Positions 269 to 15,173 of a stretch of 64,000 bases of DNA are shown here, piece after piece. Source of the stretch: Tenuifilum sp. 4138str. GTDB taxonomy: Bacteria > Bacteroidota > Bacteroidia > Bacteroidales > Tenuifilaceae. The first letter of the stretch is position 1, and each line of letters begins with the position of its first letter. The notes below the pieces were generated by a model. The model was not told where the DNA came from. It saw only the letters and a program-made list of their open reading frames with translations, and did no database searches. Location: the NCBI RefSeq assembly GCF_041102575.1, contig NZ_JBGCUE010000011.1:1-64000 (forward strand), written 5' to 3'. The position numbers and the translations under genes are program-made.

Positions 269-730
269 CTACAACTCATACTTGTAGGTTTGCTTTGATT
301 CGGACATAACAAATGAGCTGTAAAACTGAGTAATATTCTTTATCACTGAAAATTTGTGTATCACAAAGTTATGGTAGTCCTCCATGTCGTTACACTGCAC
401 TTTTAGCAGGAAATCCCAGTTGCCGGAAACGTAGTAACACTCCATAACCTCGGGTAGCTTTTTAACTTCATGCTCAAAGGCATCAACCACCTCCTTGGTG
501 TGACTCGAAAGCGATACCGAGATGAAAACCGTAAGCTTTTTTCCTAATGCCTTAGGGTCGAGCAGCGTGATATACCGCTTAATGTAACCATTCTTTTCCA
601 ACTTTTTAATTCGCTCATGGATGGGTGTTGTTGAAAGGTGTAGCCTTTCAGAAAGCTCGCGAATGGTAACACGGCTATTGTCCTGCAAAATGTTCAGAAG
701 CTTGCGGTCTATTTCGTCAATATTTCTCAT
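269..730 (-). CDS. Lrp/AsnC family transcriptional regulator
   Basis: A 153-residue protein with the classic Lrp/AsnC layout. Residues 1-60 form the winged helix-turn-helix, opening with IDEIDRKLLNILQDN and containing LSERLHLSTTPIHERIKKLE. Residues about 65-145 form the RAM ligand-binding/oligomerisation domain, with the expected GNWDFLLKV stretch. Family members sense amino acids or related small molecules and act as local or global regulators. It is transcribed away from the first PLP-enzyme gene across an AT-rich 190-bp gap, so it is the obvious candidate regulator of the purine-degradation cluster, probably sensing an amino-acid-like intermediate. That role is inferred from position only. 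The start is the ATG at 730. Confidence 0.9.
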   Translation of the reverse strand: MRNIDEIDRKLLNILQDNSRVTIRELSERLHLSTTPIHERIKKLEKNGYIKRYITLLDPKALGKKLTVFISVSLSSHTKEVVDAFEHEVKKLPEVMECYYVSGNWDFLLKVQCNDMEDYHNFVIHKFSVIKNITQFYSSFVMSESKQTYKYEL

Positions 731-918: not shown

Positions 919-2397
919 ATGATTGAAATTATTGATAGAATTACAAACCCCAAGGCACTAGAGAATGCCGTAAAGCGTTTTCGTGAAAAGGGTATTATTC
1001 TACCCACCTTTCACCAGCAGCAGAATCCAGATCAAGTTCCCGATAAAATCAAGGTAAACCTAAAAGATGTTGGGTTATGGGAGATAAACCCAGTAAACCT
1101 TTTCCGAATCACATGGAAGAACGAGCCAAAGGAAAAAGGAGGATTATTCGGCAAGGTTAATTACATTGAACTACCCAAGGAGCTAACCGGGGTAAATGCC
1201 CGAATTATACTACTGCTTGGCAAATGGTTTCCAACAGGTGCGCACAAGGTTGGTGCTGCATACGGATGCCTTGCACCCCGCATTATTACTGGTGGCTTTG
1301 ACCCTACAACCCAAAAAGCGGTGTGGCCATCAACCGGCAACTACTGCAGGGGCGGAGCATTCGATTCTAAGCTAATGGGGACTGAGTCGGTGGCAATACT
1401 ACCCGAGGAGATGAGCCGTGAACGCTTTACCTGGCTGCGCGACTATGTGGGATCTGAGGTTATTGCAACCCCCGGTTGCGAGTCGAACGTTAAGGAGATA
1501 TATGATAAGTGCTGGGAAATTCGTAGAACAAAACCCGATTACGCTATTTTTAACCAGTTCGATGAGTTTGGCAATGCCGCATGGCACTATAATATCACAG
1601 GGAAAGCCATTGAGGAGGTATTTAACGAGCTGGGCGGAAAGTCAAATCTTGCCGCGTACGTTTCGGCAACCGGCTCTGCAGGAACCATTGCCGCAGGCGA
1701 CTACCTGCGAACCTTAGCGCCACACATCAAGGTGGTAGCCTCAGAGGCAAAACAGTGCCCTACCATTCTGATGAATGGCTTTGGTGGCCACCGCATCGAG
1801 GGAATTGGCGATAAGCATGTACCCTGGATTCATAATGTTAAGAACACCGATGTTATAACCGCTATCGACGACGAGGATTGCATGCGAATTTTCAGGCTCT
1901 TCAATGAACCAGAAGGTGTAAAATACCTTGTAGAATCGGGAGTACCTGTAGAAATTGCCAATAACCTGAAACTTCTGGGTATATCGGGCATTAGCAATAT
2001 GCTCTCGGCTATTAAAACAGCCAAATTCTTTGAGATGACTTCAGAGGATGTGATATTCACCATAGCAACGGATTCGGCCGATATGTATGGATCGAGGCTT
2101 GAGGAGTTAAGGGAGGAACGCGGTAGCTATAGCCAAACCCAAGCCATAAAGGACTTTGAGAAATGTATCCTAGGTGCTACTACCGACTGGATGAGGGAGC
2201 TAACCTACCACGACCGCAAAGCCATTCATAACCTGAAATACTTTACCTGGGTTGAACAACAGGGCAAAGAAATTGACGATTTGAACAGGCTCTGGAACGA
2301 CAGGGAGCTTTGGCCTAAACTCTTTAGCCAGGTTAAACGGTGGGACGAACTTATTGATGAATTTAACGATCGGGTTGGTCTGCTTAAATCGCTATAA
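919..2397 (+). CDS. fold-type II PLP-dependent enzyme, cysteine synthase/TrpB-like
   Basis: About 492 residues, longer than typical cysteine synthases (about 310) or diaminopropionate ammonia-lyase (about 400). The PLP lysine is in GAHKVGAAYG, as in TrpB-type enzymes; a glycine-rich phosphate loop (SATGSAGTIAAG) and a Ser/Thr-Gly-Asn motif (WPSTGNYCRGG) fit a beta-elimination or beta-replacement lyase. The substrate is unknown. It is the first gene of the purine cluster, 11 nt ahead of a second PLP enzyme, where YgeX would be expected. The C-terminal 100 residues are helical and charged and lie outside the catalytic core. I prefer the ATG at 919 (AAAGG just upstream); an in-frame TTG at 901 would add six residues. 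Confidence 0.8.
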   Translation: MIEIIDRITNPKALENAVKRFREKGIILPTFHQQQNPDQVPDKIKVNLKDVGLWEINPVNLFRITWKNEPKEKGGLFGKVNYIELPKELTGVNARIILLLGKWFPTGAHKVGAAYGCLAPRIITGGFDPTTQKAVWPSTGNYCRGGAFDSKLMGTESVAILPEEMSRERFTWLRDYVGSEVIATPGCESNVKEIYDKCWEIRRTKPDYAIFNQFDEFGNAAWHYNITGKAIEEVFNELGGKSNLAAYVSATGSAGTIAAGDYLRTLAPHIKVVASEAKQCPTILMNGFGGHRIEGIGDKHVPWIHNVKNTDVITAIDDEDCMRIFRLFNEPEGVKYLVESGVPVEIANNLKLLGISGISNMLSAIKTAKFFEMTSEDVIFTIATDSADMYGSRLEELREERGSYSQTQAIKDFEKCILGATTDWMRELTYHDRKAIHNLKYFTWVEQQGKEIDDLNRLWNDRELWPKLFSQVKRWDELIDEFNDRVGLLKSL

Positions 2398-2408
2398 ATC
2401 AATTTTCT

Positions 2409-3644
2409 ATGAACGGAAAGTTCATACTTACCTGCTCGGGCTGTGGCAAAACCTTTGCGCCATCGCCTGAGCTTTACCTTTGCCCGGATTGCAGCAGGAA
2501 TAATGATACCGTAAACCCACCAAAGGGAGTGCTAAAAGCAGTATACGACTATGAAATCCTGAGTAAACATAAGGAAGAGGTAATCACAGGAAATTTTTGG
2601 GATCTAATCCCGCTGCTTAAAAAGGAATCGTTACCCAAGCTAAGAATTGGCGAAACACCATTGTATAGGTTTGATAGAATTGATGGTGAAACGCTTACAT
2701 TTGAGCTATACCTGAAGGATGATTCGCAAAACCCAACCTTTTCGTTTAAGGATAGGGCATCGGCGGTGGTATCGGCCTATGCCAGGGAAAATGGCATTAG
2801 CACAATAGTTGCTGCATCAACCGGAAACGCAGGCTCTTCCCTTGCCGGTATATGTGCTTCGCAGGAGCAAAAAGCCATTATTATTGTGCCCAAGAGCGCA
2901 CCACATGCTAAGCTCACCCAAATTGTGATGTACGGAGCCACAATTGTTCCGGTAAACGGCACCTACGATATGGCTTTTGACCTTAGCATGGAGGCAACCA
3001 AAGAGTTTGGCTGGTATAACCGAAACACAGCCTTTAACCCGCTAACCATTGAGGGGAAAAAGACCGTTTCGTTTGAGCTGTTTAAACAGCTCAGCAGGGC
3101 TATACCCGATTATATCTTTGTTCCCGTTGGCGATGGTGTAATTATTTCGGGGGTTTACAAGGGATACGAAGATTTGCTCAAAGTAGGGTTGATTGATCGT
3201 ATGCCCACCGTTGTTGCAGTTCAGGCAGCCGGCAGCTCAAATCTAATCGAAAATATTGGAAAACCCGATTTTACCATAAAACCCAGCAATACCCTTGCCG
3301 ACTCCATCTCTGTAGATATTCCACGAAATTTCTTTATGGCTCAATACTACCTGCTCCAATACAAGGGTGAATGGCTCTCAGTAACCGATGATGATATTGT
3401 AAATGCTTCAAAGATCCTTGCGCGTAACACTGGAATTTTTGCTGAACCTGCAGCTTCAACAGCCTTTGCTGGAATGCTTTGCTACCAAAAGAATCAAAAA
3501 TTGCTTTCAAAGCAAAGGGTAGTTGTGTTGCTTACCGGGAGCGGTTTAAAGGACCTCAAAGCCGTTTCATCGGTTATTAATATTCCAAATGCCATTGACC
3601 CTACCGTTGATTCGTTGAGGAAAAACGAGTGGATTAAATTTTAG
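2409..3644 (+). CDS. threonine synthase-like PLP enzyme with N-terminal zinc ribbon
   Basis: 411 residues. The N-terminus has a CSGC...CPDC zinc-ribbon pattern (residues about 9-29), then a threonine-synthase-type fold-type II PLP domain with the lysine in FSFKDRAS (about residue 117), the STGNAGSS loop and the phosphate-binding TGSGLKD near the C-terminus. Relatives include threonine synthase, cysteate synthase and other beta-lyases. Its place between another PLP enzyme and the xanthine dehydrogenase-like gene suggests a catabolic lyase, perhaps acting on 2,3-diaminopropionate or a related product, rather than threonine synthesis. That reassignment is inference. It is probably co-transcribed with the upstream PLP gene (11-nt gap). 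Confidence 0.85.
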   Translation: MNGKFILTCSGCGKTFAPSPELYLCPDCSRNNDTVNPPKGVLKAVYDYEILSKHKEEVITGNFWDLIPLLKKESLPKLRIGETPLYRFDRIDGETLTFELYLKDDSQNPTFSFKDRASAVVSAYARENGISTIVAASTGNAGSSLAGICASQEQKAIIIVPKSAPHAKLTQIVMYGATIVPVNGTYDMAFDLSMEATKEFGWYNRNTAFNPLTIEGKKTVSFELFKQLSRAIPDYIFVPVGDGVIISGVYKGYEDLLKVGLIDRMPTVVAVQAAGSSNLIENIGKPDFTIKPSNTLADSISVDIPRNFFMAQYYLLQYKGEWLSVTDDDIVNASKILARNTGIFAEPAASTAFAGMLCYQKNQKLLSKQRVVVLLTGSGLKDLKAVSSVINIPNAIDPTVDSLRKNEWIKF

Positions 3645-3735
3645 AATTTGAAATCCTTTAGGTATAAGTTAATGGTGTTTTGTGTATAGAATCCTGAAAT
3701 CTGTTTTGCGACTTCTACCCTATTCCAAAACATTT

Positions 3736-3743
3736 TACCTTTG
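3736..3743 (+). promoter_or_regulatory. -7 promoter element, near-leaderless start of the xdh gene
   Basis: TACCTTTG matches the Bacteroidota -7 consensus TAnnTTTG exactly and ends 8 nt before the ATG at 3752. Transcription would begin almost at the start codon. It gives the xdh-ssnA pair a promoter of its own within the cluster. Confidence 0.5.
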
Positions 3744-3751
3744 TAAATACT

Positions 3752-6310
3752 ATGATACGATTCAACTTAAACGGTAAAACGGTAGAGTATAATGGCGATA
3801 TAAATCGTTCGTTACTCGAGTATTTGCGGAACGACTTGCACCTAACCGCAGCTAAGGATGGCTGCTCAGGTCAAGGGGTGTGCGGTGCATGCTCGGTAGA
3901 GGTTAACGGTAGCATTAAAATGGCTTGCCGCATAAAAATGTCCGACCTAAGTGAGGCTATCGTATACACCCTGGAGGGGCTGCCAAATAATTTCCGCGAA
4001 ATACTAGCCCACCACTTTGCCACCCAGGGAGCAGTTCAGTGCGGATTCTGCTCGCCTGGTATGATAATGCGTGCCAGAGGGTTATGGTTATCGAACCCAA
4101 AAGCAACACGCAGCGATATCATCAGGGCTATCGCGCCAAATCTTTGCAGGTGCACAGGCTATGTCAAAATAATTGATGCCATTCAGCATGCCTTTGCCGA
4201 GCTAAATGGCCAAGCTTTGCCAAAGAATAATACAGGAGCCAGGATTGGCGAACGCTATCCAAAATATCAAGCCAAGGAAACAGCCCTAGGCCAAAGGCCT
4301 TTTGTTGACGATATGTTTGTTGATGGGATGTTATACGGAGCCTTAAAGTTTTCCGACCATCCACGAGCAAAGGTTTTAAAAATTGATACCTCTAAAGCCT
4401 TGTCGGTGCAGGGTGTGGTAAAGGTAATAACCGCAACGGATATTCCGGGTGAACGCTACATTGGGCTGATTTTTCAGGATTGGCCTGTAATGGTTGCCCA
4501 GGGCGAGGTTACTCATTACATCGGTGATGTTATAGCCGGAGTGGTGGCAACATCGGAGGATATAGCCAGGTATGCCGCTTCATTAATCGAGGTTGAATAC
4601 GAGGTATTAGAGCCTGTTACCGATATCCATCAGGCCATAAAACCCGATTCGCCCCAGGTTCATCCAAATCGGTCAAATGTGTTGGAAACATGCACAATTC
4701 GGTTTGGTGAAGTTGATAAGGCTTTTGCTGAAGCAGCTTACGTTTCGTCCGATATCTACGAAACCCAGCGTATTGAACATGCATTTCTGGAAACAGAAGC
4801 TGCACTTGCCCTACCCAATGGCGATGGCATAAAAGTTTTCAGCCAGGGACAGGGTGTTTACGTTGACCGAAAGCAAATAGCAAAAATCCTAAACCTACCC
4901 GAAAGTAAGGTTAATGTGGTTCAGGTTCAAAACGGTGGTGGGTTCGGTGGAAAAGAGGACTTAACTGTTCAGGGCCATGCAGCTCTAATGAGCTATATTA
5001 CCCAAATGCCCGTAAAGGTTCACCTTACCCGCGATGAAAGCATAAGAATGCACCCCAAGAGGCATCCGGTTTGGATGAAAATGAGCCTTGCCTGCAACTC
5101 CGAGGGGAAATTTACTGCTCTTAAACTTGAGGCCATAGGCGATACAGGAGCATATGCATCGGTAGGGACTAAGGTGATGGAGCGTGTGGTTGGACATGCC
5201 ACGGGTGGCTACACCGTTCCCGCTGTAGATATCTCGGCTAAAACCGTTTATACAAACAATATCCCATGTGGAGCCATGCGTGGTTTTGGTGTTCCACAGG
5301 TTACCTTTGCCATTGAAAGCTGTATCGACGACCTTTGCCGTCAGGGTGGTTTTGACCGCTGGCAAATTCGCTACGATAACGCCCTTGAGGAAGGCGCCAA
5401 AACTGCAACCGGTCAGGAACTACATGGGGTTGGACTAAAGAAAACCCTTATTGCAGTAAAGGAGCAATTTAAGTCGGCCAAGTATGCAGGCATAGCCTGC
5501 GGCCTAAAGAATACCGGTGTTGGTAACGGAATGGTTGACGATAGCGAGGTTATAATCAAGGTTGTTAGCCCAACCAGAGTTGAAATTCACCACGGATGGA
5601 CGGAAATGGGTCAAGGCGTTCACACCATGGCCATTCAAACGCTTCACCATGAAACCGGTATTGAACCAAGCTGTATAGAGGTGATAGTTGATACCGATGC
5701 GGAGATTCCAACTGGTATGACCACTTCGTCAAGGGCTACAGCCCTGGTTGCCAATGCCCTTATCAACGCTTCGCGTCCCCTGAGAGAAGATTTAAAGACG
5801 GCCAAACTCGAGAAACTGGTAGGCCGGGTTTACCGTGGTAAATTTGTTTGCGATTGGACATGCAAGCCCGGCGCTAAAACTGATAAACCGGTAATACACT
5901 TTGCCTATGGCTATGCCACACAGGTTGCCATTCTTAACGAACAGGGCAAGCTATCGAAAATAATTGCTGCCCACGATGCGGGCAAAATCATGAATCAGAT
6001 GCTTTTCGAGGGTCAAATTGAGGGTGCTGTGCATATGGGAATGGGATATGCACTAACAGAGGATTTACCCATGGAGAATGGCTTTCCCGTTAGCTTTAAG
6101 TTTAAGGATATTGGGATTATCCGCGCCAACCAAATGCCCGAAATTGAAGTTATTGGAATTGAAGAGCCCGACCCAATCGGCCCATTCGGTGCAAAGGGTA
6201 TTGGCGAAATAGGCATGGTGCCAACCGCTGCAGCCATAGCCAATGCGCTTTGGACTTTTGACGGTGTAAAGCGAACACGCCTACCCATGATGAGGAGCAA
6301 GTCAGAATAA
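3752..6310 (+). CDS. xanthine dehydrogenase-like Mo hydroxylase, Fe-S/molybdopterin fusion
   Basis: 852 residues joining a two-[2Fe-2S] subunit (residues 1-155) to a molybdopterin subunit (about 170-850), with no FAD domain. The first cluster uses C38, C44, C47 and C59; the second C97, C100, C132 and C134 (CGFCSPGM, CRCTGY). Moco-site motifs are intact: GGGFGGKE (about 395-402), the arginine of MRGFG (about 510) and the base Glu in GAKGIGE (about 816-819). Size and domain order match XdhD and the family annotated as selenium-dependent xanthine dehydrogenase; selenium itself cannot be read from sequence. It probably hydroxylates or reduces purines in the cytoplasm, passing electrons through the clusters to an unknown partner. 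The first motif is C-x5-C rather than the usual C-x4-C. ssnA follows after 25 nt. Confidence 0.9.
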   Translation: MIRFNLNGKTVEYNGDINRSLLEYLRNDLHLTAAKDGCSGQGVCGACSVEVNGSIKMACRIKMSDLSEAIVYTLEGLPNNFREILAHHFATQGAVQCGFCSPGMIMRARGLWLSNPKATRSDIIRAIAPNLCRCTGYVKIIDAIQHAFAELNGQALPKNNTGARIGERYPKYQAKETALGQRPFVDDMFVDGMLYGALKFSDHPRAKVLKIDTSKALSVQGVVKVITATDIPGERYIGLIFQDWPVMVAQGEVTHYIGDVIAGVVATSEDIARYAASLIEVEYEVLEPVTDIHQAIKPDSPQVHPNRSNVLETCTIRFGEVDKAFAEAAYVSSDIYETQRIEHAFLETEAALALPNGDGIKVFSQGQGVYVDRKQIAKILNLPESKVNVVQVQNGGGFGGKEDLTVQGHAALMSYITQMPVKVHLTRDESIRMHPKRHPVWMKMSLACNSEGKFTALKLEAIGDTGAYASVGTKVMERVVGHATGGYTVPAVDISAKTVYTNNIPCGAMRGFGVPQVTFAIESCIDDLCRQGGFDRWQIRYDNALEEGAKTATGQELHGVGLKKTLIAVKEQFKSAKYAGIACGLKNTGVGNGMVDDSEVIIKVVSPTRVEIHHGWTEMGQGVHTMAIQTLHHETGIEPSCIEVIVDTDAEIPTGMTTSSRATALVANALINASRPLREDLKTAKLEKLVGRVYRGKFVCDWTCKPGAKTDKPVIHFAYGYATQVAILNEQGKLSKIIAAHDAGKIMNQMLFEGQIEGAVHMGMGYALTEDLPMENGFPVSFKFKDIGIIRANQMPEIEVIGIEEPDPIGPFGAKGIGEIGMVPTAAAIANALWTFDGVKRTRLPMMRSKSE

Positions 6311-6335
6311 TGTTTAACCTCCAAATTCTTACCCT

Positions 6336-7601
6336 ATGATTTTACTTTCCAATGCCACCTATATCGACTATCAAACGCTGGAAATCAAGAATTGCGATAT
6401 ACTGGTTACCAAAGGTAATATTGAATTCCATCCACCCAAAACATACAGGGGCAAAGCCACTGAAACCATCAACTGTTCCGGAAAGCTGGTTACGCATTCG
6501 TTTATTGTTGGCCATCACCATGCATACTCAGCATTAGCCCGAGGAATGGGTGCACCCAAAAAATCACCTGAAAATTTTTACGAAATCCTTAAATATATTT
6601 GGTGGACACTCGATAAATGCCTCACCACCGAAATGGTAGAGTATAGCGGTTTGGTTACCGCTATGGCTTGTGCAAAGGCTGGGGCTACATTTGTTATTGA
6701 CCACCATGCTTCCCCTTATGCGGTAAAAGGTTCACTTGAGACACTTGCCAAAGCATTTGAAAGGGTTGGCCTATCGCACCTACTCTGCTACGAGATTAGC
6801 GACAGGGATGGTGATGAAATTGCCCAACAAGGACTTGAGGAAACCGATAGCTACCTGAAAAACTATCAGGGACTGGTTGGCCTACACGCATCGTTCACCC
6901 TAAGCGATAGAACCTTACAGGCAGCAGCAGAACTAACGCAGAAGCACAATTCGGGTGTTCATATCCATGTAGCTGAGGACAAATACGACCAACAACATTG
7001 CCATGAAACCTATGGTAAAACTGTGATTGAAAGGCTTAACGACTTTAACTTCCTAAACTCTAGCAAATCGATTCTGGTGCATTGCCTGCACCTTTCCGAA
7101 AAGGAACGTAACCTTATTGGTCAATCGCCCTGCTGGGTAGCACAAAACACTGATAGTAACCTGAACAACAACGTTGGTTATTTCAGCAGTAAAAATCTGG
7201 GTGAAAATATCATGCTGGGCACTGATGGTATGCACAGCGATATGCTACAAAGCATGAAATCGGCTTACTTTGTTGGCCAAAACCTTGATCCCATGAGCCC
7301 TGCGCAAGCATACAAACGACTAAGAAATGCTCACCACTACATAGCCCAAAATGGCTTCAGCGGCGATGGCCCCGATAACCTTGTGGTTCTCGATTACGAT
7401 TCCCCCACACCCGTTACCGCTGAAAATATTCCTGGACACTTTATTTATGGCATCAATCAGTCGCATATAGAACATGTTATTTCCAATGGAAAACTCATAG
7501 TCAAAAGCAGAGCGATAACCACCGTTGATCAGGAAATCATTCTTAAAGAATCGCAAAAATTAGCGCTAGAGCTTTGGAAAAGGATGAGAGGGGAAGGATA
7601 A
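6336..7601 (+). CDS. ssnA: putative aminohydrolase SsnA
   Basis: 421 residues, an amidohydrolase-superfamily metal enzyme related to guanine deaminase and chlorohydrolases. Visible metal-site motifs are GHHHAYSAL (about residue 58), HIHVAED (about 210), VHCLHL (about 249) and LGTDGM (about 294). SsnA accompanies selenium-linked molybdenum hydroxylases and the YgeW/YgeY/HyuA set in enterobacteria and clostridia, and is implicated in opening or deaminating a purine-derived ring; its exact reaction is not settled. It follows the hydroxylase gene by 25 nt, presumably in one transcript. The coding end runs into a GGATAAA heptamer repeat (about 7596-7610). Confidence 0.9.
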   Translation: MILLSNATYIDYQTLEIKNCDILVTKGNIEFHPPKTYRGKATETINCSGKLVTHSFIVGHHHAYSALARGMGAPKKSPENFYEILKYIWWTLDKCLTTEMVEYSGLVTAMACAKAGATFVIDHHASPYAVKGSLETLAKAFERVGLSHLLCYEISDRDGDEIAQQGLEETDSYLKNYQGLVGLHASFTLSDRTLQAAAELTQKHNSGVHIHVAEDKYDQQHCHETYGKTVIERLNDFNFLNSSKSILVHCLHLSEKERNLIGQSPCWVAQNTDSNLNNNVGYFSSKNLGENIMLGTDGMHSDMLQSMKSAYFVGQNLDPMSPAQAYKRLRNAHHYIAQNGFSGDGPDNLVVLDYDSPTPVTAENIPGHFIYGINQSHIEHVISNGKLIVKSRAITTVDQEIILKESQKLALELWKRMRGEG

Positions 7602-7925
7602 AGGATAAAGGTTTAAGGTTGACCCGTGACCCGACGTGAAATATTGGGATAGACTCCACCAAAGCATTTCTTTATCATGCTAAGCTCACAGAGGCATCTC
7701 TTTGCTCATTTTTCCACTTGGCCTTGCATGAGATCCCGCGCACTTCTTGGTGTGATAAATGGAGTTGATGGTTGATTGTCATAAAATAGAACGCATATTA
7801 CCCTGATTAAATTGATTTACAAAGGTTAAATTAACCAAACACCAAGCACTAACCACTAAGCACTAAACACAATCACCCCTATACACTTCACACTGAACAC
7901 TGTAAGCTAAGAATATGTACTTTCG
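7602..7925. other. gene-free stretch with degenerate repeats
   Basis: No convincing reading frame. It holds a short GGATAAA repeat at the end of ssnA, a decayed REP-like palindrome (about 7640-7760, with GGGATAGACT and AGGCATCTCTTTGCTCA blocks also found near 22.3 kb), and a run of CACTAA/CACTGAACAC-type degenerate repeats (about 7840-7905). These resemble other intergenic repeats in this window. Confidence 0.5.
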
Positions 7926-8029
7926 GGCGTAATGGACAAAATTCAGGCTATTTTTTAGGTAGTTTGTTCTAATTGACATTTTTCAGGCTTTTTATTTTAA
8001 TGTTTTTCGAAAGAAGCAAATAGTATTAA

Positions 8030-8037
8030 TAGATTTG
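8030..8037 (+). promoter_or_regulatory. -7 promoter element inside the MITE-like element
   Basis: TAGATTTG matches TAnnTTTG exactly. Transcription would start near 8043, at the 5' end of the hairpin series that ends in the terminator at 8113-8136. Confidence 0.45.
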
Positions 8038-8042
8038 TATGT

Positions 8043-8136
8043 CAGGTAAGCAGAAACAGGCTCTGCTGGAGAGCAACCTGTCAGGAATATCCTGACCGAC
8101 TGGAATGGTCATAAAGGCTGACACTCGTCAGCCTTT
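8043..8136 (+). ncRNA. candidate structured small RNA
   Basis: Between a -7 promoter match (8030-8037) and a strong terminator lie nested and consecutive stems: CAGGT 8043-8047 with ACCTG 8076-8080, enclosing AGCAGA 8049-8054 with TCTGCT 8062-8067; GTCAGGA 8080-8086 with TCCTGAC 8090-8096; then the 10-bp terminator stem. GTCAGG at 8041-8046 could instead pair with CCTGAC at 8091-8096, so two folds compete. It matches no RNA family I recognise. A short minus-strand frame also runs through this stretch, so a coding or transposon-internal origin is not excluded. Confidence 0.4.
8113..8136. terminator. bidirectional Rho-independent terminator
   Basis: AAAGGCTGAC (8113-8122), loop ACTC, GTCAGCCTTT (8127-8136): a perfect 10-bp stem followed by a T-rich tail. 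It ends the candidate small RNA, and in reverse the short minus-strand frame. Confidence 0.8.
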
Positions 8137-8475: not shown

Positions 8476-9099
8476 ATGAATCAACAAGTATTGGAATGGA
8501 TTGGGTATAGCGCTTCGGTAATCATTGCGCTATCAATGACGATGAGTTCGATAGTTAAGTTCCGTTGGATAAATCTAACAGGAGCATTGATGTTCTCAAT
8601 TTACGGTTTTCTGATTGGAGCATGGCCTGTGGGCATTTTAAACGGTTTTATTGTGCTTACCGATGCTTACTACCTTTTTCAAATCTATTCGAAAAAAGAG
8701 GTGTTTGAGATACTTGAGGTTCGCCCCGAGAACCGTTACCTGATGCGTTTCCTTGATTTTCATCAAAAGGATATACATCGTTTCTTTCCTGGTTTTGTCT
8801 ATACCCCCACTGAAAATACAGTTAGTTTCCTCATACTGCGTAACATGGCAATTGCGGGGGTATTCATTGCCCAACGCAACGAAACAAAAGCGCTTGAGGT
8901 AGAGCTTGATTACGTTTTACCTGAATACCGCGACTTTAAGAATGGCAAGTTTGTTTACTACTGGCTTAGCCAGAAATTTACCGAAACCGGATATACCCGG
9001 GTGTGGGCAAAGGCATGCAATAAGAGCCACAAAAAATACTTGCAACATTTGGGCTTTACTGAATCGGGCGGTAACCATTTTCTGAAAATACTTGAATAA
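8476..9099 (+). CDS. YgjV-like membrane domain fused to GNAT-like acetyltransferase domain
   Basis: 207 residues. The first 75 form about three hydrophobic segments (residues about 8-26, 31-48 and 50-70) resembling the YgjV/PnuC-like small inner-membrane family. Residues about 85-207 look like a GNAT fold: an IAGVFIAQRN strand, then YRDFKNGKFVYYWLSQ, a GYTRVWAKACNKSHKKYLQHLGF core and a final strand. Such a protein would place an acyltransferase at the cytoplasmic face of the inner membrane. The substrate is unknown. It sits 9 nt before hyuA, so it is probably co-transcribed with the hydantoinase and may serve purine uptake or degradation, though no functional link is established. Confidence 0.6.
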   Translation: MNQQVLEWIGYSASVIIALSMTMSSIVKFRWINLTGALMFSIYGFLIGAWPVGILNGFIVLTDAYYLFQIYSKKEVFEILEVRPENRYLMRFLDFHQKDIHRFFPGFVYTPTENTVSFLILRNMAIAGVFIAQRNETKALEVELDYVLPEYRDFKNGKFVYYWLSQKFTETGYTRVWAKACNKSHKKYLQHLGFTESGGNHFLKILE

Positions 9100-9108
9100 G
9101 AGTAGGAA

Positions 9109-10539
9109 TTGAGAATATTAATTACAAACGGTAGGATTGTAACATCGGTTGGCGAGCAAATTGCCGACCTGTTGGTTGTTGATGGGAAGATAGCGGCCAT
9201 TGGTAACCAGTTAGAAGCTAATGCTGAAACCACAATCAACGCACAGGGTATGCTAGTGCTGCCTGGGGGTATCGACCCACATGTTCATTTGCACCTACCT
9301 ACACCCGCCGGTTTTTCATCGGACGACTTTCATTCGGGCAGCATTGCTGCCCTTATGGGCGGAACAACAACCATTATCGATTTTGTGACCCCATCACGGG
9401 GTCAATCAATGGTTGAAGCGCTAAAAGCACGAATGGATGAGGCTGCTTGCTCGCTAGTTGATTACACATTTCATGTGAGCCCTATTGAATGGAATAAAAA
9501 TACTCCCAAAGAGATTGAGGAATGCATTGAAATGGGATTTCCATCGTTTAAAGTTTACATGGCCTATAAAAGTTCCGTTGGAATTGATGACAATGCCTTA
9601 TACCATGTAATGCATACAGTGGCTCAGAATGGTGGTATGGTTACTGCTCACTGTGAGATGGGTGATGATATCGATACTTTAAGAGATTTTTATGCCAGTC
9701 AGGGTCTTACAGCCCCAAAGTACCACATGCTCTCGCGTCCACCTCGATTTGAAGCATTAGCTGTTAAACGTGCTATCGATCTTGCCGATCAAACCCAGTG
9801 CCCCCTTTACATTGTTCACGTTTCGGCGGCTGAATCGGTTAAACATATTATTCAAGCCCAAAAAAGTGGCCAACCGCTTTATGCCGAAACCTGCCCTCAG
9901 TATCTTCTACTCGATGAAGCCCTGTACGATTCCACTTTGCCCGAAGCAATAAAGTATGTTATAAGCCCACCGCTCAGGCAAAGTATTGACAGAGATACCC
10001 TCTGGAATGCCATCAATAATGGAAATATACTAACGGTTGGAACTGATCATTGCCCTTTCAGTCTTGAGCAAAAGATGGTGGGCAAGGACGATTTCCGCAA
10101 AATACCAAACGGAGCAGGCGGGATTGAACATAGGCTTGCGCTACTATACACTTTTGGTGCATTAACCGGTAAGCTAAGCCTTAGCAAATTGGTTGATGTT
10201 TTTGCAACACAACCGGCTAAAATATTTGGACTATACCCTCAAAAGGGTGAACTTGCCATTGGTGCCGATGCCGATATTGTGATTTGGAATCCAAACGTAA
10301 AAGGCTCAATTTCTTCAAGTAAACATCACTCAAAGTCCGACATAAGCATTTATGAAGGCTTTGAGACTACTGGTGAGGTTGCTTTTGTAATCAAAAGCGG
10401 AATTATTGCAGTTTATAACGGAAAATTGAGCAAAAATCTGCCCAGCGGTCAGTTACTTAAACGCCGGTCGACGAAAACAACAGGCCACTACTACAAAAGA
10501 ATGGATAATTCAGGTTCCTACAATTGTGGTAGGGTTTGA
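9109..10539 (+). CDS. hyuA: dihydropyrimidinase / D-hydantoinase HyuA
   Basis: 476 residues, cyclic amidohydrolase family. Metal and active-site motifs are complete: DPHVHLHL (about residue 58), the carbamylated lysine in KVYMAYK (about 149), AHCE (about 182), YIVHVSAAE (about 238) and GTDHCPF (about 311). It opens cyclic ureides such as hydantoins or dihydropyrimidines; in uric-acid clusters HyuA is proposed to open a purine-derived ring. The start is TTG at 9109, supported by AGTAGGAA just upstream and by MRILITNGRIV, which aligns with the usual N-terminus of the family. The last 20 residues (ending YNCGRV) look unusual and may reflect drift. Confidence 0.93.
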   Translation: MRILITNGRIVTSVGEQIADLLVVDGKIAAIGNQLEANAETTINAQGMLVLPGGIDPHVHLHLPTPAGFSSDDFHSGSIAALMGGTTTIIDFVTPSRGQSMVEALKARMDEAACSLVDYTFHVSPIEWNKNTPKEIEECIEMGFPSFKVYMAYKSSVGIDDNALYHVMHTVAQNGGMVTAHCEMGDDIDTLRDFYASQGLTAPKYHMLSRPPRFEALAVKRAIDLADQTQCPLYIVHVSAAESVKHIIQAQKSGQPLYAETCPQYLLLDEALYDSTLPEAIKYVISPPLRQSIDRDTLWNAINNGNILTVGTDHCPFSLEQKMVGKDDFRKIPNGAGGIEHRLALLYTFGALTGKLSLSKLVDVFATQPAKIFGLYPQKGELAIGADADIVIWNPNVKGSISSSKHHSKSDISIYEGFETTGEVAFVIKSGIIAVYNGKLSKNLPSGQLLKRRSTKTTGHYYKRMDNSGSYNCGRV

Positions 10540-10549
10540 AACAGGTTAA

Positions 10550-11091
10550 TTAAAGCCAAGTTATAAGATACTCATCAAACTCAGCACCTTTGCTTTCCTC
10601 CTTAACTAAGTTAACCTGAACCCCATACACCTTGCATTTTCTCACTAGGGTATCGAGCAACCCCACCTGAATATGCGTGTTAAATAGTTGGGTTTTTCCA
10701 TTTGAATGGACTTATCAGTGTGTGAAACTATTTCCCAACCTCTCCGTTTAGGATCTTTTACACCTTTCTGCGCTAGCAAAACCAACGCTTTCAATACATC
10801 CAACGGCTTACTTTCGGTATTAACCATGTTGGTTTCAAGCATTAGACTGTAGGTTGATTCACCAATCCGGCGGCCAATTTTAATTAGGTTAAATTGTCCC
10901 AGCTTCTTTTCAATCCAGCTACATAGCTCCACGTAAACCTTGAATGGAATTTTGTTGGTAGGTTTCGACAGGTCATAACCACTAACTATCTGAAATAAAT
11001 CGGGGTAATCGGCTTTTTTATCCTGATAACAGCTAATTATATCATTGATAGCCCATGCATCAATGAATATCTCCTCAATCAACTCTTTCAT
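10550..11091 (-). pseudogene. frameshifted V4R/heme-NO-binding-like small protein
   Basis: The frame from ATG 11091 stops at 10645 after 148 residues, but its normal C-terminus continues in another frame: after ...SIQMEK, the reading QLFNTHIQVGLLDTLVRKCK and onward to DEYLITWL stops at TAA 10550-10552. One extra A in the five-A tract at 10693-10697 (minus-strand sense) would restore a single protein of about 180 residues. The restored C-terminal pattern (hydrophobic segment, VGLLDTL, final strand ending in W) recalls V4R/heme-NO-binding-like sensor folds; this is a weak assignment. It could be a real mutation, a phase-variable tract or a sequencing error. It lies between hyuA and ygeW. Confidence 0.6.
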
Positions 11092-11345: not shown

Positions 11346-12533
11346 CTACTTTATAACTCTTGGTGTGTTCCTTTCAATAAGTTTCATTAGAATATCAGCG
11401 GGATTTTGGAACCTATTGGTAAGCATCAGAGCAGCAATAATATACGGTTTGAAACCCGCTTCCTGGTAAGTTTTAATGCGGTAACGCTCAAAGGTTTCCT
11501 TACTTACCTCACCCTGAATGCACGATTCGCCCGAAATATCGGCTGGTAGGCAGTGCATGTAAAGAGCATCAGAATTCCTTGTTACCTTGCGAACCTGCTC
11601 ATTGTACTCCCAATCCTTGTACTTGGCATTGTTAGCCAGGCAAACCTGCTCGAGCTCTTTAAGGCCATTCTTATCGCCATTCATAAGCAGCTGAGTGCGT
11701 TGCTGCATGATGTGGAATGGCGCCCAGCTTTTTGGGTAAACAATATCGGCATCGCGCATGGCATCGGTCATGCTGTGGCTAACCTTAAAGCTACCTCCGC
11801 TTTGAGTGGCATTTTTTCTGGCAATTTCAACAATTTCAGGAATAAGGTCGTAGCCCTCTGGGTAGGCTAACTCCACATTCATGCCAAAACGGGTCATCAG
11901 AGCAATAATACCCTGTGGAACCGATAGTGGTTTGCCATAGCTGGGCGAGTATGCCCAGCTCATCACAATCTTTTTGCCACGCAAAGCATCCAGTGAACCA
12001 TACTCATTGGCAAGGTGAAGCAGGTCAGCCATCGACTGGGTTGGGTGATCCATATCGCATTGCAGGTTCACAATACCAGGCCTAACAGGCAAAACCCCCT
12101 TAGTAAAACCTTCATCGAGTGCTTCGCCAACCTGGCGCATATACTTGTTTCCTTCACCCAGGAACATGTCATCGCGAATACCAATGAAATCGGAAAGGAA
12201 CGAAATCATGTTAGCGGTTTCACGAACGGTTTCGCCGTGCGAAATCTGCGATTTCTCCTCATCCAACTCCTGAACTGCAAGTCCCAACAGGTTTGCAGCC
12301 GAAGCAAACGAAAAACGAGTTCTTGTGGACTTATCCCTAAAGTTTGAAATAGCCAGGCCTGAATCGAATATGCGGGGTGAAATGTTTTCCTTACGCATCT
12401 CTTTAAGAATGGACGCAACCTGTAGCACAACCTTAAGGTCGTCGTCGCTCTTCTCCCATGTGAGTAAAAAATCTTTACCGCTAAGGTCTGATTTGTAGTG
12501 ATTTAACTCCGCTATTTTCTTGATTAAATCCAT
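11346..12533 (-). CDS. ygeW: knotted carbamoyltransferase YgeW
   Basis: 395 residues of the aspartate/ornithine carbamoyltransferase superfamily. The carbamoyl-phosphate motif is STRTRFSF (about residue 71), followed by DHPTQSMADL (about 161) and MHCLPAD (about 328). Length and motifs fit YgeW, the branch found in selenium/purine clusters and thought to handle a carbamoylated 2,3-diaminopropionate-type intermediate, running in the catabolic direction to yield carbamoyl phosphate. Here it is on the minus strand, convergent with the hyuA arm, with its own promoter and terminator, so the cluster is not one operon. Together with YgeY it is the strongest marker identifying the locus. Confidence 0.93.
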   Translation of the reverse strand: MDLIKKIAELNHYKSDLSGKDFLLTWEKSDDDLKVVLQVASILKEMRKENISPRIFDSGLAISNFRDKSTRTRFSFASAANLLGLAVQELDEEKSQISHGETVRETANMISFLSDFIGIRDDMFLGEGNKYMRQVGEALDEGFTKGVLPVRPGIVNLQCDMDHPTQSMADLLHLANEYGSLDALRGKKIVMSWAYSPSYGKPLSVPQGIIALMTRFGMNVELAYPEGYDLIPEIVEIARKNATQSGGSFKVSHSMTDAMRDADIVYPKSWAPFHIMQQRTQLLMNGDKNGLKELEQVCLANNAKYKDWEYNEQVRKVTRNSDALYMHCLPADISGESCIQGEVSKETFERYRIKTYQEAGFKPYIIAALMLTNRFQNPADILMKLIERNTPRVIK

Positions 12534-12812: not shown

Positions 12813-14000
12813 CTAAATCTCATATGCGAAGGCGGCATAAAAGGCAGCAGCTGCCACCAAATCGCTAATGGGAACCTTCTCATTGGGAGCATGAGCTAAC
12901 ACCTCATTGCCTGGGCCAAAACCAATTGTAGGAATTTTATAGGTTCCACAGGTCATAATACCATTTGTGGAAAAGGTCCACTTATCAACCTTTGGAGCAT
13001 TGCCAAAAAGCTTCTGGTAGGTGCTTACGCCTTTCTGCACAATCTCACTGTCCTCAGGCATTTTCCACGTTGGGTAGTATTTTTCCATGCCGTATTCCAG
13101 TCCTGTATAAGCCTTCTCGCTATAGTTTAGCACTTCCACCTTGGCATTCATGCCTTTAATCAGCTCTTCAATCTCGGCAACAGCGCTCTCCTTGGTTTCG
13201 CCCCAGGTAAGGCGACGGTCGAGGTGAATGCGGGCATAGTCGGAAACTGCGCATAGCGAAGGACTACTGGAGGTGAACTCCGTAACAGTGATGCTTCCCT
13301 TTCCCAGAAACTCATCGAATTTTAGTCGTTCGTTTAGTTTTTCTACCTCCAAGGCCACCTTTGAGGCCATGTAAATGGCATTTTTCCCTCTTTCGGGTGC
13401 TGAGCCATGAGCGGAAACACCGTAAAAATGAACCTGCATTTCCATTCTACCGCGGTGACCCCTGTAAATATTGAGGTTTGTAGGTTCAGTGCTTATAACA
13501 AAATCGGGTCTTATTTTATCCTCCTCCACAATGTACTTCCAGCAAAGTCCGTCGCAATCCTCTTCCATCACGCTACCTACAAAGTATATGGTTAAATCCC
13601 TGTTAAAGCCAAGTTCCTTAAGTATTTTGCCAGCCGTCACAAATGCAGCAGGGCCACCTTTCTGGTCAACTGTTCCGCGACCATGTACATACCCATCGCG
13701 AATTTCGCCTCCCAAGGGATCGAACTCCCAGTTATCCTTATTGCCAATATCAACCGTATCCATGTGGCCATCGATGGCAAGAATACGTTTTCCGTTTCCA
13801 ATACGACCAATTACATTCCCAAGCCCATCGATAAAAACCTCGTCAAATCCAGCCTCTTCCATTTGCTTCTTTAGCTCCAGCTGCACGTCGCGCTCCTGCG
13901 CACTCAAGGATTTAATCTGAACCAATCGGGACAGATTACGTGCAGTATAATCGGCATATTTCTCCGATAACTCCTTTATCTTACTATATACGTCGCTCAT
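12813..14000 (-). CDS. ygeY: YgeY family M20 peptidase-like hydrolase
   Basis: 395 residues, M20/ArgE/DapE metallohydrolase fold. Metal-site motifs are DGHMDTVD (about residue 77), the GTVDQKGG aspartate (about 112), MEEDCDGL (about 146) and the C-terminal HAPNEKV histidine (about 375). A dimerisation insert lies around residues 180-290. YgeY accompanies YgeW, SsnA and selenium-linked xanthine dehydrogenases; it probably removes an acyl, formyl or carbamoyl group from an open-chain intermediate before the PLP lyase step. The 279-bp gap to ygeW contains a REP-like repeat and a promoter, so ygeY and ygeW may be transcribed separately although both are on the minus strand. Confidence 0.93.
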   Translation of the reverse strand: MSDVYSKIKELSEKYADYTARNLSRLVQIKSLSAQERDVQLELKKQMEEAGFDEVFIDGLGNVIGRIGNGKRILAIDGHMDTVDIGNKDNWEFDPLGGEIRDGYVHGRGTVDQKGGPAAFVTAGKILKELGFNRDLTIYFVGSVMEEDCDGLCWKYIVEEDKIRPDFVISTEPTNLNIYRGHRGRMEMQVHFYGVSAHGSAPERGKNAIYMASKVALEVEKLNERLKFDEFLGKGSITVTEFTSSSPSLCAVSDYARIHLDRRLTWGETKESAVAEIEELIKGMNAKVEVLNYSEKAYTGLEYGMEKYYPTWKMPEDSEIVQKGVSTYQKLFGNAPKVDKWTFSTNGIMTCGTYKIPTIGFGPGNEVLAHAPNEKVPISDLVAAAAFYAAFAYEI

Positions 14001-14213: not shown

Positions 14214-15173
14214 ATGGGTATGATTTGGCAATTTATACACTCAAAAATTCAGCAGAATATTGACGTTTACCTAATTACCGTTGCCGAAACACAGGGAAGC
14301 AGTCCAGGCAAGGTTGGGTTTAAAATGGCTGTTGCCGCCGATGGTAGCCTTTACGGCTCAATAGGTGGAGGTGTAATGGAGTTTAACCTGGTAGAAATGG
14401 CACGCAAGAACCTGGCACAGGGAAATAAACAAAACTTCTTGAAGCGGCAGGTTCACTCACACGATGCAGCTGAAGATAAATCGGGGATGATATGTTCCGG
14501 GGAGCAAACACAAATCTTCAGCCTTTTCTCAAAAGCCGATTCAGAGCTTTTAGCTAAGGTTATTGAGCTTGAAAGCGAAAACCGTCCGGGAAAAATAGTT
14601 TTATCATCCAGTGGCGCGGAGGTATACGAGGGTGAATCGCATATTGGTATTAAAGGAATTGAGTTTCAAAAAAGCGATTCAAGCTTCCGCTACAGCGAGC
14701 CTTTAGGGGTAAAAGAAACTGTTTACATATTTGGTGCCGGTCATATAAGCGTTCCGCTTTCGCAAATTCTCGGTCTGCTTGACTTTAGGGTTGAACTGTT
14801 CGATAACAGGCAGGGGTTAACCACCTTTGAGGGTAATACCTGGGCCCACAAAAAACAGATTGTTGACTACAAGCAGGTATCACACCTTTTACCTGGAAAC
14901 AATAGAAGTTACGTTGTGATAATGACCTTTGGGCATAAGTTCGACGAGATAGTACTAAAGCAGCTAATCGGTAAGCCTTTGAAGTACATTGGTATGATAG
15001 GCAGCAAAAGCAAGGTGAAAACCATATTTGAGAGCCTTATTGCGGAAGGTTATGGCAAGGAGAATGTGGAAAGGGTTTGCTCACCCATTGGATTACCCAT
15101 TGGTGGACAAACCCCTGCAGAGATTGCTGTGAGCATTGCTGCCCAAATAGTTGAATGGCGCAACAAACGTTAA
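14214..15173 (+). CDS. xdhC: XdhC/CoxI family molybdenum-hydroxylase maturation protein
   Basis: 319 residues. The N-terminal XdhC_CoxI domain (about 1-110) has AETQGSSPGKVG, SIGGGVMEFNLVEMA and the MICSGEQ cysteine; the C-terminal XdhC Rossmann domain (about 160-310) has FGAGHISVPL, YIGMIGSKSKV and IGLPIGGQTPAEIAVSIAAQI. XdhC binds Moco and promotes its sulfuration before insertion into xanthine dehydrogenase, so its likely client is the hydroxylase encoded at 3752. It is divergent from ygeY and closes the cluster. The short N-terminal domain and lack of a CoxF/MobA fusion are ordinary. The start is the ATG at 14214; a second ATG two codons on is possible. Confidence 0.92.
   Translation: MGMIWQFIHSKIQQNIDVYLITVAETQGSSPGKVGFKMAVAADGSLYGSIGGGVMEFNLVEMARKNLAQGNKQNFLKRQVHSHDAAEDKSGMICSGEQTQIFSLFSKADSELLAKVIELESENRPGKIVLSSSGAEVYEGESHIGIKGIEFQKSDSSFRYSEPLGVKETVYIFGAGHISVPLSQILGLLDFRVELFDNRQGLTTFEGNTWAHKKQIVDYKQVSHLLPGNNRSYVVIMTFGHKFDEIVLKQLIGKPLKYIGMIGSKSKVKTIFESLIAEGYGKENVERVCSPIGLPIGGQTPAEIAVSIAAQIVEWRNKR

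Follow-up and report, generated by a model that had tools for sequence, protein, structure and literature searches.

The window analysed here, the 64,000 nucleotides at positions 1 to 64,000 of contig NZ_JBGCUE010000011.1 (C11) of Tenuifilum sp. 4138str, starts at base 1 of that contig and belongs to a genome of 3.28 Mb that is 99.5% complete. Close to its start lie two intact open reading frames (ORFs) on the same strand, PLP1 and PLP2, which are separated by a spacer of 11 nt (2398-2408) and whose predicted pyridoxal phosphate (PLP) enzymes both match the PF00291 family above its cut-off of 35 (PLP1: 57.9 bits; PLP2: 229.5 bits). They accompany genes for the reductive degradation of uric acid (Table 1), the last enzyme of which is elsewhere the diaminopropionate ammonia-lyase YgeX. 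The original prediction, made from the sequence, took the pair for members of different fold-type II branches that jointly replace YgeX, in two steps or as two subunits. The ORF coordinates agree with two adjoining intact genes, and the family matches and structures with two distinct branches, but a joint replacement is not supported, given the occurrence of PLP1 beside YgeX in genome G026 and locus L178 and of PLP2 without PLP1 in four genomes. We suggest instead, with moderate confidence and on the evidence of sequence comparison, that PLP2 substitutes for YgeX as the last enzyme and that PLP1 is a separate and optional enzyme of this pathway.

The locus is best explained as a cluster for the reductive breakdown of uric acid (purines) whose last enzyme probably differs from the usual one. 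The xanthine dehydrogenase homologue (XDH), YgfK, HyuA, YgeW and YgeY all exceed their family cut-offs, and the main enzymes of the set are present in the genome with the exception of YgeX (the search did not cover carbamate kinase or YgfM). The SsnA-like protein, which scores under its curated cut-offs, is the weak point of the set in this genome; the TIGR03314 cut-off was passed by none of the 149 genomes of the order that were surveyed. As had been predicted, YgeX was not found, the best match to TIGR03528 being PLP2 itself (33.8 bits; cut-off: 532). The genome shares an XDH homologue, YgfK, HyuA, YgeW and YgeY with the uricolytic clusters of E. coli and C. difficile as set out in parts of Li et al. 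2025 (PMC12507026), and has an SsnA-like protein as well; unlike those clusters, the Tenuifilum genome has PLP1 and PLP2, with no YgeX found.

Table 1. Features of the uric-acid degradation locus in the window
Feature	Position	Strand	Remarks
Lrp/AsnC-family regulator	269-730	-	PRK11169 125.6 bits, under cut-off (233); divergent from the PLP pair
PLP1	919-2397	+	492 aa from ATG 919; ORF opens at TTG 901; cysteine-synthase/cystathionine beta-synthase-like
PLP2	2409-3644	+	411 aa; threonine-synthase-like, N-terminal zinc ribbon; proposed YgeX substitute
Selenium-dependent xanthine dehydrogenase homologue	3752-6310	+	TIGR03311 895.7 bits (cut-off 830.45)
SsnA-like aminohydrolase	6336-7601	+	Best families PRK07203 394.4 bits (cut-off 444) and TIGR03314 362.9 bits (cut-off 455.5)
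Conserved protein beside SsnA/HyuA	8476-9099	+	207 aa; homologues in L121, L137, L138, L158 and L171
HyuA-type hydantoinase/dihydropyrimidinase	9109-10539	+	TIGR02033 521 bits (cut-off 393)
YgeW knotted carbamoyltransferase	11346-12533	-	PRK07200 659.4 bits (cut-off 453); TIGR03316 617.6 bits (cut-off 500)
YgeY hydrolase	12813-14000	-	PRK13004 543.1 bits (cut-off 321)
XdhC-family maturation factor	14214-15173	+	NF045664 229.2 bits, under cut-off (350)

The ygfK gene is found on a second contig, C12, at positions 117873-120641 of 125047 and thus about 4 kb from its end (TIGR03315: 890.8 bits; cut-off: 835.3). The gene that follows it there is a homologue of the 362-aa gene following YgfK in the sister genome G138, where the order runs YgfK, 362-aa gene, Lrp regulator, PLP1 and PLP2. 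Among the 18 related loci with YgfK, ygfK is located directly upstream of PLP1 in eight and one ORF further in three. We infer that C12 joins C11, and the real cluster probably extends further upstream than the start of C11. The predicted head of the cluster is at the same time the first kilobase of a contig, and ygfK precedes PLP1 in many relatives.

Both genes of the pair were found in 29 of the 149 genomes of the order, PLP1 without PLP2 in five, PLP2 without PLP1 in four (G044, G057, G070 and G089) and neither in 111 (Fisher p = 1.5e-21, relatedness ignored). PLP1 (E ≤ 1e-30) is present in 34 genomes, PLP2 (E ≤ 1e-60) in 33, YgfK in 39 and YgeW, above its cut-off, in 33, while PLP1 is found in 33 and PLP2 in 32 of the 39 YgfK genomes. 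The check for co-occurrence that had been proposed for the pair thus gave a strong association with YgfK, SsnA and YgeW (Fisher p of 1e-21 and smaller, shared ancestry ignored). The YgeW count includes G099, where two pieces were joined, and omits G114, with a partial YgeW. For SsnA, 37 of the 45 genomes with E ≤ 1e-60 were kept and eight (E from 1e-61 to 1e-69, including G129) dropped; for YgfK, 39 of 43 genomes with E ≤ 1e-100 were kept and four (best E from 2.8e-105 to 2.5e-101) dropped; and for YgeX the six genomes with E < 1e-80 were retained from 87 with E ≤ 0.001.

A wider profile search of genome contigs with the PLP1 alignment yielded at least 593 stretches, at least 588 of them confirmed, and 80 loci were kept, spanning Bacteroidetes, Chloroflexi, Elusimicrobia, Planctomycetota, Ignavibacteria, Firmicutes and others. 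Neighbours were counted in 76 of these, the PLP1 ORF having been lost to an overlapping longer frame in four. A PLP2 homologue lies within three ORFs of PLP1 in 41 of the 76, and the loci, with flanks of at most 10 kb, contain XDH (22 loci), a YgeW-like carbamoyltransferase (20), SsnA or 8-oxoguanine deaminase (19), YgfK (18), carbamate kinase (17; the name comes from a single representative) and HyuA (15), all rough counts based on clusters made by BLAST. Forty further PLP1 genomes were selected from the 80 loci, and PLP2 is present in 35 of them, 15 called by the signature residues described below and 20 by a PLP2 homologue in the PLP1 locus (L187 checked). L280 (G167, with Glu at 298), L292 (G160, with Cys at 213) and L276 (G150, with Ser at 213) entered this count and L294 (G169) did not; PLP2 is absent from G149, G169, G170, G186 and G188.

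Which of the two enzymes stands in for YgeX is indicated by the genomes where PLP1 and YgeX meet. In G026 (locus L117), YgfK (2056-5385), PLP1 (5396-6877) and YgeX (6888-8048) follow one another, with YgeX in the place of PLP2, and no PLP2 was found in this genome; its YgeX lies above the PRK08206 and TIGR01747 cut-offs and under that of TIGR03528. The order in the SAR324 locus L178 is YgeW-YgeY-YgeX-PLP1, and five genomes (G026, G129, G149, G170 and G188) combine PLP1 and YgeX in the absence of PLP2. The occupation of the PLP2 slot by YgeX in G026, together with these five genomes, makes PLP2 the likely substitute for YgeX and PLP1 an extra enzyme, which, since it is found with either, we place on a neighbouring intermediate. 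Among the 39 YgfK genomes of the order, YgeX occurs in three of the seven lacking PLP2 as against one of the 32 with it, and the corresponding figures for the 40 chosen genomes are 3/5 and 3/35 (one split), giving 6/12 and 4/67 when pooled (Fisher p = 5e-4, relatedness ignored). The chosen genomes with a YgeX above the PRK08206 cut-off are G149, G170 and G188, which lack PLP2, and G156 and G171, which have it, as does G185 with a split copy of YgeX. G073 carries YgeX with neither PLP1 nor PLP2, as described for E. coli. On the PLP1 tree, where genomes with both PLP2 and YgeX were counted as PLP2, the YgeX-only state needs four changes, at least two of them by starred branches, suggesting that the swap probably happened more than once.

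A strict joint replacement of YgeX by the pair was therefore rejected, as PLP1 lives with YgeX in other genomes. A looser version, where the two amount to one YgeX equivalent, with PLP2 taking one enantiomer of diaminopropionate and PLP1 the other (or racemising it), or with both in a complex, appears unlikely, although it deserves more weight than any other alternative. The frequent company of the two genes (29 of the 34 PLP1 genomes of the order, 35 of the 40 chosen ones and close linkage in 41 of 76 loci) is consistent with it, as is Asn206 of PLP2, which stands where YgeX has Asp189, presumably the base for the D isomer. Further points in its favour are the activity of YgeX on both L- and D-2,3-diaminopropionate, as stated in a section of PMC12507026, and the handedness of the pathway intermediates, which a passage of PMC12990295 names as an open question. 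However, the YgeX proteins found with PLP1 in L117 and L178 have retained both Asp residues, PLP2 does without PLP1 in 4/33 genomes, and PLP1 is by sequence and fold of the cysteine-synthase type, not the serine-racemase type.

PLP1 had been described as TrpB/cysteine synthase-like with a long C-terminal extension. Its closest likeness is to cysteine synthase, cystathionine beta-synthase and beta-cyanoalanine synthase, more than to TrpB, and the extension has a counterpart at the N-terminus. The AF2 model (pLDDT: 90.9) has a core of the cysteine-synthase/cystathionine beta-synthase kind at about residues 37-414 of 492, with extensions of about 40 N-terminal and 80 C-terminal residues in which it differs from the enzymes sharing that core; the start at ATG 919 is matched by that of the close homologue L137. 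In the structure comparison (VIA) the best match is 3vc3 (Z: 35.4; root-mean-square deviation (rmsd): 2.4 over 312 residues; identity: 23%), and the 50 entries listed range from Z 31.5 to 35.4, indicating the general cysteine-synthase fold and nothing narrower. PLP1 remains far under the cut-off of every named enzyme family matched, including cysK (TIGR01139: 105.1 bits; cut-off: 350.95), cystathionine beta-synthase (TIGR01137: 66.8 bits; cut-off: 510) and SbnA (TIGR03945: 49.2 bits; cut-off: 350). All 43 aligned rows have Lys110 and the motif GIGDKH, and the stretch matching this motif reads GIGAG in three aligned cysteine synthases.

The nearest folds to PLP1 are the beta-substituting enzymes beta-cyanoalanine synthase, O-acetylserine sulfhydrylase and O-ureidoserine synthase, which would suit a biosynthetic role in which PLP1 draws on 2,3-diaminopropionate or albizziin for a beta-substitution (for example with sulfide to give cysteine), leaving PLP2 as the catabolic lyase. 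We regard this as improbable, given the separate CysK-like protein of the genome (L002, named by eye) and the position of PLP1 among catabolic genes in many loci. No hint of a substrate came from the PLP1 neighbours in Elusimicrobia (a CpXC protein and a poly(A)-polymerase-like protein) or in Chloroflexi (a family 2 glycosyltransferase and proteins of 192 and 534 aa that had no match at the thresholds used). A protein represented by a family 2 glycosyltransferase is encoded directly upstream of PLP1 in 13 loci (L221:9039-9968 and similar), for no visible reason. In G040 (L122, 132-8169), PLP1 is located between genes for XDH subunits, an XdhC-like factor and 8-oxoguanine deaminase.

PLP2 is a threonine-synthase relative with the zinc ribbon that had been predicted for it. 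In 60 aligned rows, which were chosen by BLAST identity (>34%) and length (≥400 aa) and not by signature, the ribbon cysteines C9, C12 and C25 are present in all and C28 in 43, and the PLP lysine Lys114 is invariant. The nearest structures to its AF2 model (pLDDT: 95.0) are threonine synthases, namely those of A. thaliana (2c2b; Z: 43.7; rmsd: 2.4 over 370 residues), the best match in the comparison (VIA), and T. thermophilus (1v7c; Z: 41.6), with which it shares Lys114 in SFKDR and an STGN motif; the lack of YgeX entries among the 50 matches listed is uninformative. It differs from them in the loss of a conserved Arg and Asn and the gain of Asp242 and Asp298-Ser299. Column 213 holds Arg in 10/10 threonine-synthase-like proteins of the short and long zinc-ribbon types (the E. 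coli-type ThrC is not in this alignment) and in 0/60 PLP2 rows, column 242 holds Asn in the ten and Asp in all 60, column 298 is Asp in 60/60 as against 0/10, and Arg205 and Lys217 divide the two sets likewise. We take the Arg (213) and Asn (242) as the residues of threonine synthase that bind the phosphate of the substrate. A quick tree was built from 74 of the collected proteins, leaving aside near-copies, distant relatives and rows with a bad start. In it, the PLP2 rows make up a separate group (support 94 for 41 rows, and 95* for 42 once L263 is included), which lies outside the E. coli-type, short and long zinc-ribbon groups of threonine-synthase-like proteins, several of these coming from the same genomes. 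An 812-aa open frame in G160 that suggested a PLP2 fusion was rejected, as the extra part appears by eye to be a wrong-frame read upstream of PLP2.

That PLP2 might instead be the biosynthetic threonine synthase of the organism, its position in the cluster being incidental, is very improbable. It does exceed the thrC cut-off (TIGR00260: 177.5 bits; cut-off: 167.1), and no second protein resembling a threonine synthase, of the E. coli ThrC type or any other, was found in the genome; a homoserine dehydrogenase is also present. However, that dehydrogenase sits in what resembles, by eye, a methionine operon, and the best match to homoserine kinase reaches 37.4 bits against the TIGR00191 cut-off of 168.25 (GHMP type; the unrelated kinase type was not searched). 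Among the 33 PLP2 genomes of the order, homoserine dehydrogenase was not seen in 18, neither it nor an E. coli-type ThrC in 14, and in nine, as in several other genomes, such a ThrC stands alongside PLP2. The original prediction would have fallen with a PLP2 placed firmly among biosynthetic threonine synthases in a genome with no other, and here the answer is mixed: no other was found, but PLP2 lies outside the threonine-synthase groups of the tree and no homoserine kinase comes above the TIGR00191 cut-off, so that the prediction is not refuted in this way. On the tree, the residues (Arg and Asn replaced in 60/60 rows) and the missing kinase, the assignment was rejected, and PLP2 probably does not work as a threonine synthase. 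Since neither a threonine synthase nor the usual homoserine kinase was recognised in the genome, the organism may need threonine. Two further proteins of this genome, L004 and L005, appear TrpB-like by eye. A cysteate synthase-like role of PLP2 in sulfonolipid formation is scarcely credible despite its closeness to CapA2 of Alistipes finegoldii (9k3c; Z: 40.0; rmsd: 2.8; 386 residues; identity: 21%), which we assume to make cysteate, as PLP2 scores 66.3 bits against the TIGR03844 cut-off of 324.9 and the purine-degradation neighbours repeat in several phyla.

We thus favour PLP2 as the substitute for YgeX at the last step and PLP1 as an additional enzyme, the likely exchange in this family of clusters being that of PLP2 for YgeX. 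While the families, the cluster, the exchange pattern and the residue changes can be read from sequence, the substrates and reactions are those we propose. PLP2 would bind PLP on Lys114 and remove the beta-amino group of 2,3-diaminopropionate, giving 2-aminoacrylate and from it pyruvate and ammonia, and would thereby fill the role of YgeX although it is no YgeX itself. A substrate bearing a positive amino group instead of the phosphate would agree with the loss of the Arg and Asn and with the two Asp residues gained, Asp242 and Asp298. For PLP1, the most likely reaction would be a beta-elimination or a beta-substitution, carried out on a related intermediate (albizziin, or the opposite enantiomer of 2,3-diaminopropionate).

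Several observations weigh against this assignment, in addition to the thrC score of PLP2. The support of 94 for the PLP2 group is just below the starred value, and the tree carries long-branch warnings; later PLP2 members keep the residue pattern, except that L280 has Glu at 298. PLP2 and YgeX are found together in G089, G156, G171 and G185 (split gene), and four YgfK genomes have neither, three of them (G061, G084 and G130) being 70-78% complete and G066 96%. The TIGR03528 cut-off was passed by no YgeX in the survey of the order (0/149), for which E < 1e-80 was used instead, and the YgeX-only label is spread over the PLP1 tree much as shuffled labels are (68/500 as low). G040 has PLP1 with no YgfK, SsnA, YgeW or PLP2 at the thresholds used and does not fit the placing of PLP1 as an extra enzyme of the pathway. 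Furthermore, YgeX (E. coli b2871) is a fold-type II PLP enzyme like PLP2 and takes its slot in G026, and the two profiles align (hhalign; probability: 99.6; identity: 20% over 306 columns), but PLP2 has the zinc ribbon, and Asp120 and Asp189 of YgeX fall on Thr138 and Asn206. Lys77 and Asp120 are given as catalytic residues of YgeX in part of PMC4000059. As these columns differ, the same mechanism cannot be assumed, and PLP2 would have arrived at its activity independently, perhaps for a single enantiomer.

A broader reading, which we advance tentatively and as the less probable outcome, is that in many phyla the pathway ends in a hitherto undescribed two-enzyme branch, with a threonine-synthase-derived diaminopropionate lyase that evolved independently of YgeX and a new class of cysteine-synthase-like enzyme, PLP1, acting on 2,3-diaminopropionate or albizziin in an unrecognised step, both hidden by the use of the shared PF00291 domain as the mark of YgeX. 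The published cluster survey in PMC12507026 counts YgeX by PF00291 alone; as this domain is matched by PLP1 and PLP2, both may have been counted as YgeX. The legend of that survey names six phyla, Bacteroidota not among them, and the string 'bacteroid' occurs nowhere in the main text of the article. Among the titles and abstract openings listed in literature searches, none describes a threonine-synthase-like diaminopropionate lyase, this cluster variant or either protein in such a role. The degradation of uric acid by bacteria is relevant to gout, and its pathway has been elucidated only recently, as outlined in sections of PMC12507026 (2025). Should PLP2 prove to be the last enzyme in many bacteria, domain-based surveys of YgeX would miscount the endings of the pathway, and genomes without YgeX may still have a complete one. 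PLP1, as an enzyme that is widely conserved and linked to a single pathway, would be easy to test, and the stereochemistry of the late intermediates, open according to the passage in PMC12990295, can be probed with both enzymes.

The 207-aa protein encoded between the SsnA and HyuA genes gave no match in NCBIfam (threshold 1e-5) or in Pfam (0.001); by eye, its N-terminal part appears membrane-like and its C-terminal part acetyltransferase-like. A 148-aa protein encoded inside the cluster (10645-11091) likewise had no Pfam match at 0.001. The divergent position of the Lrp/AsnC-family regulator is repeated in seven related loci (L137, L138, L139, L157, L158, L164 and L166), and the signal to which it responds could be an amino-acid-like intermediate of the pathway.

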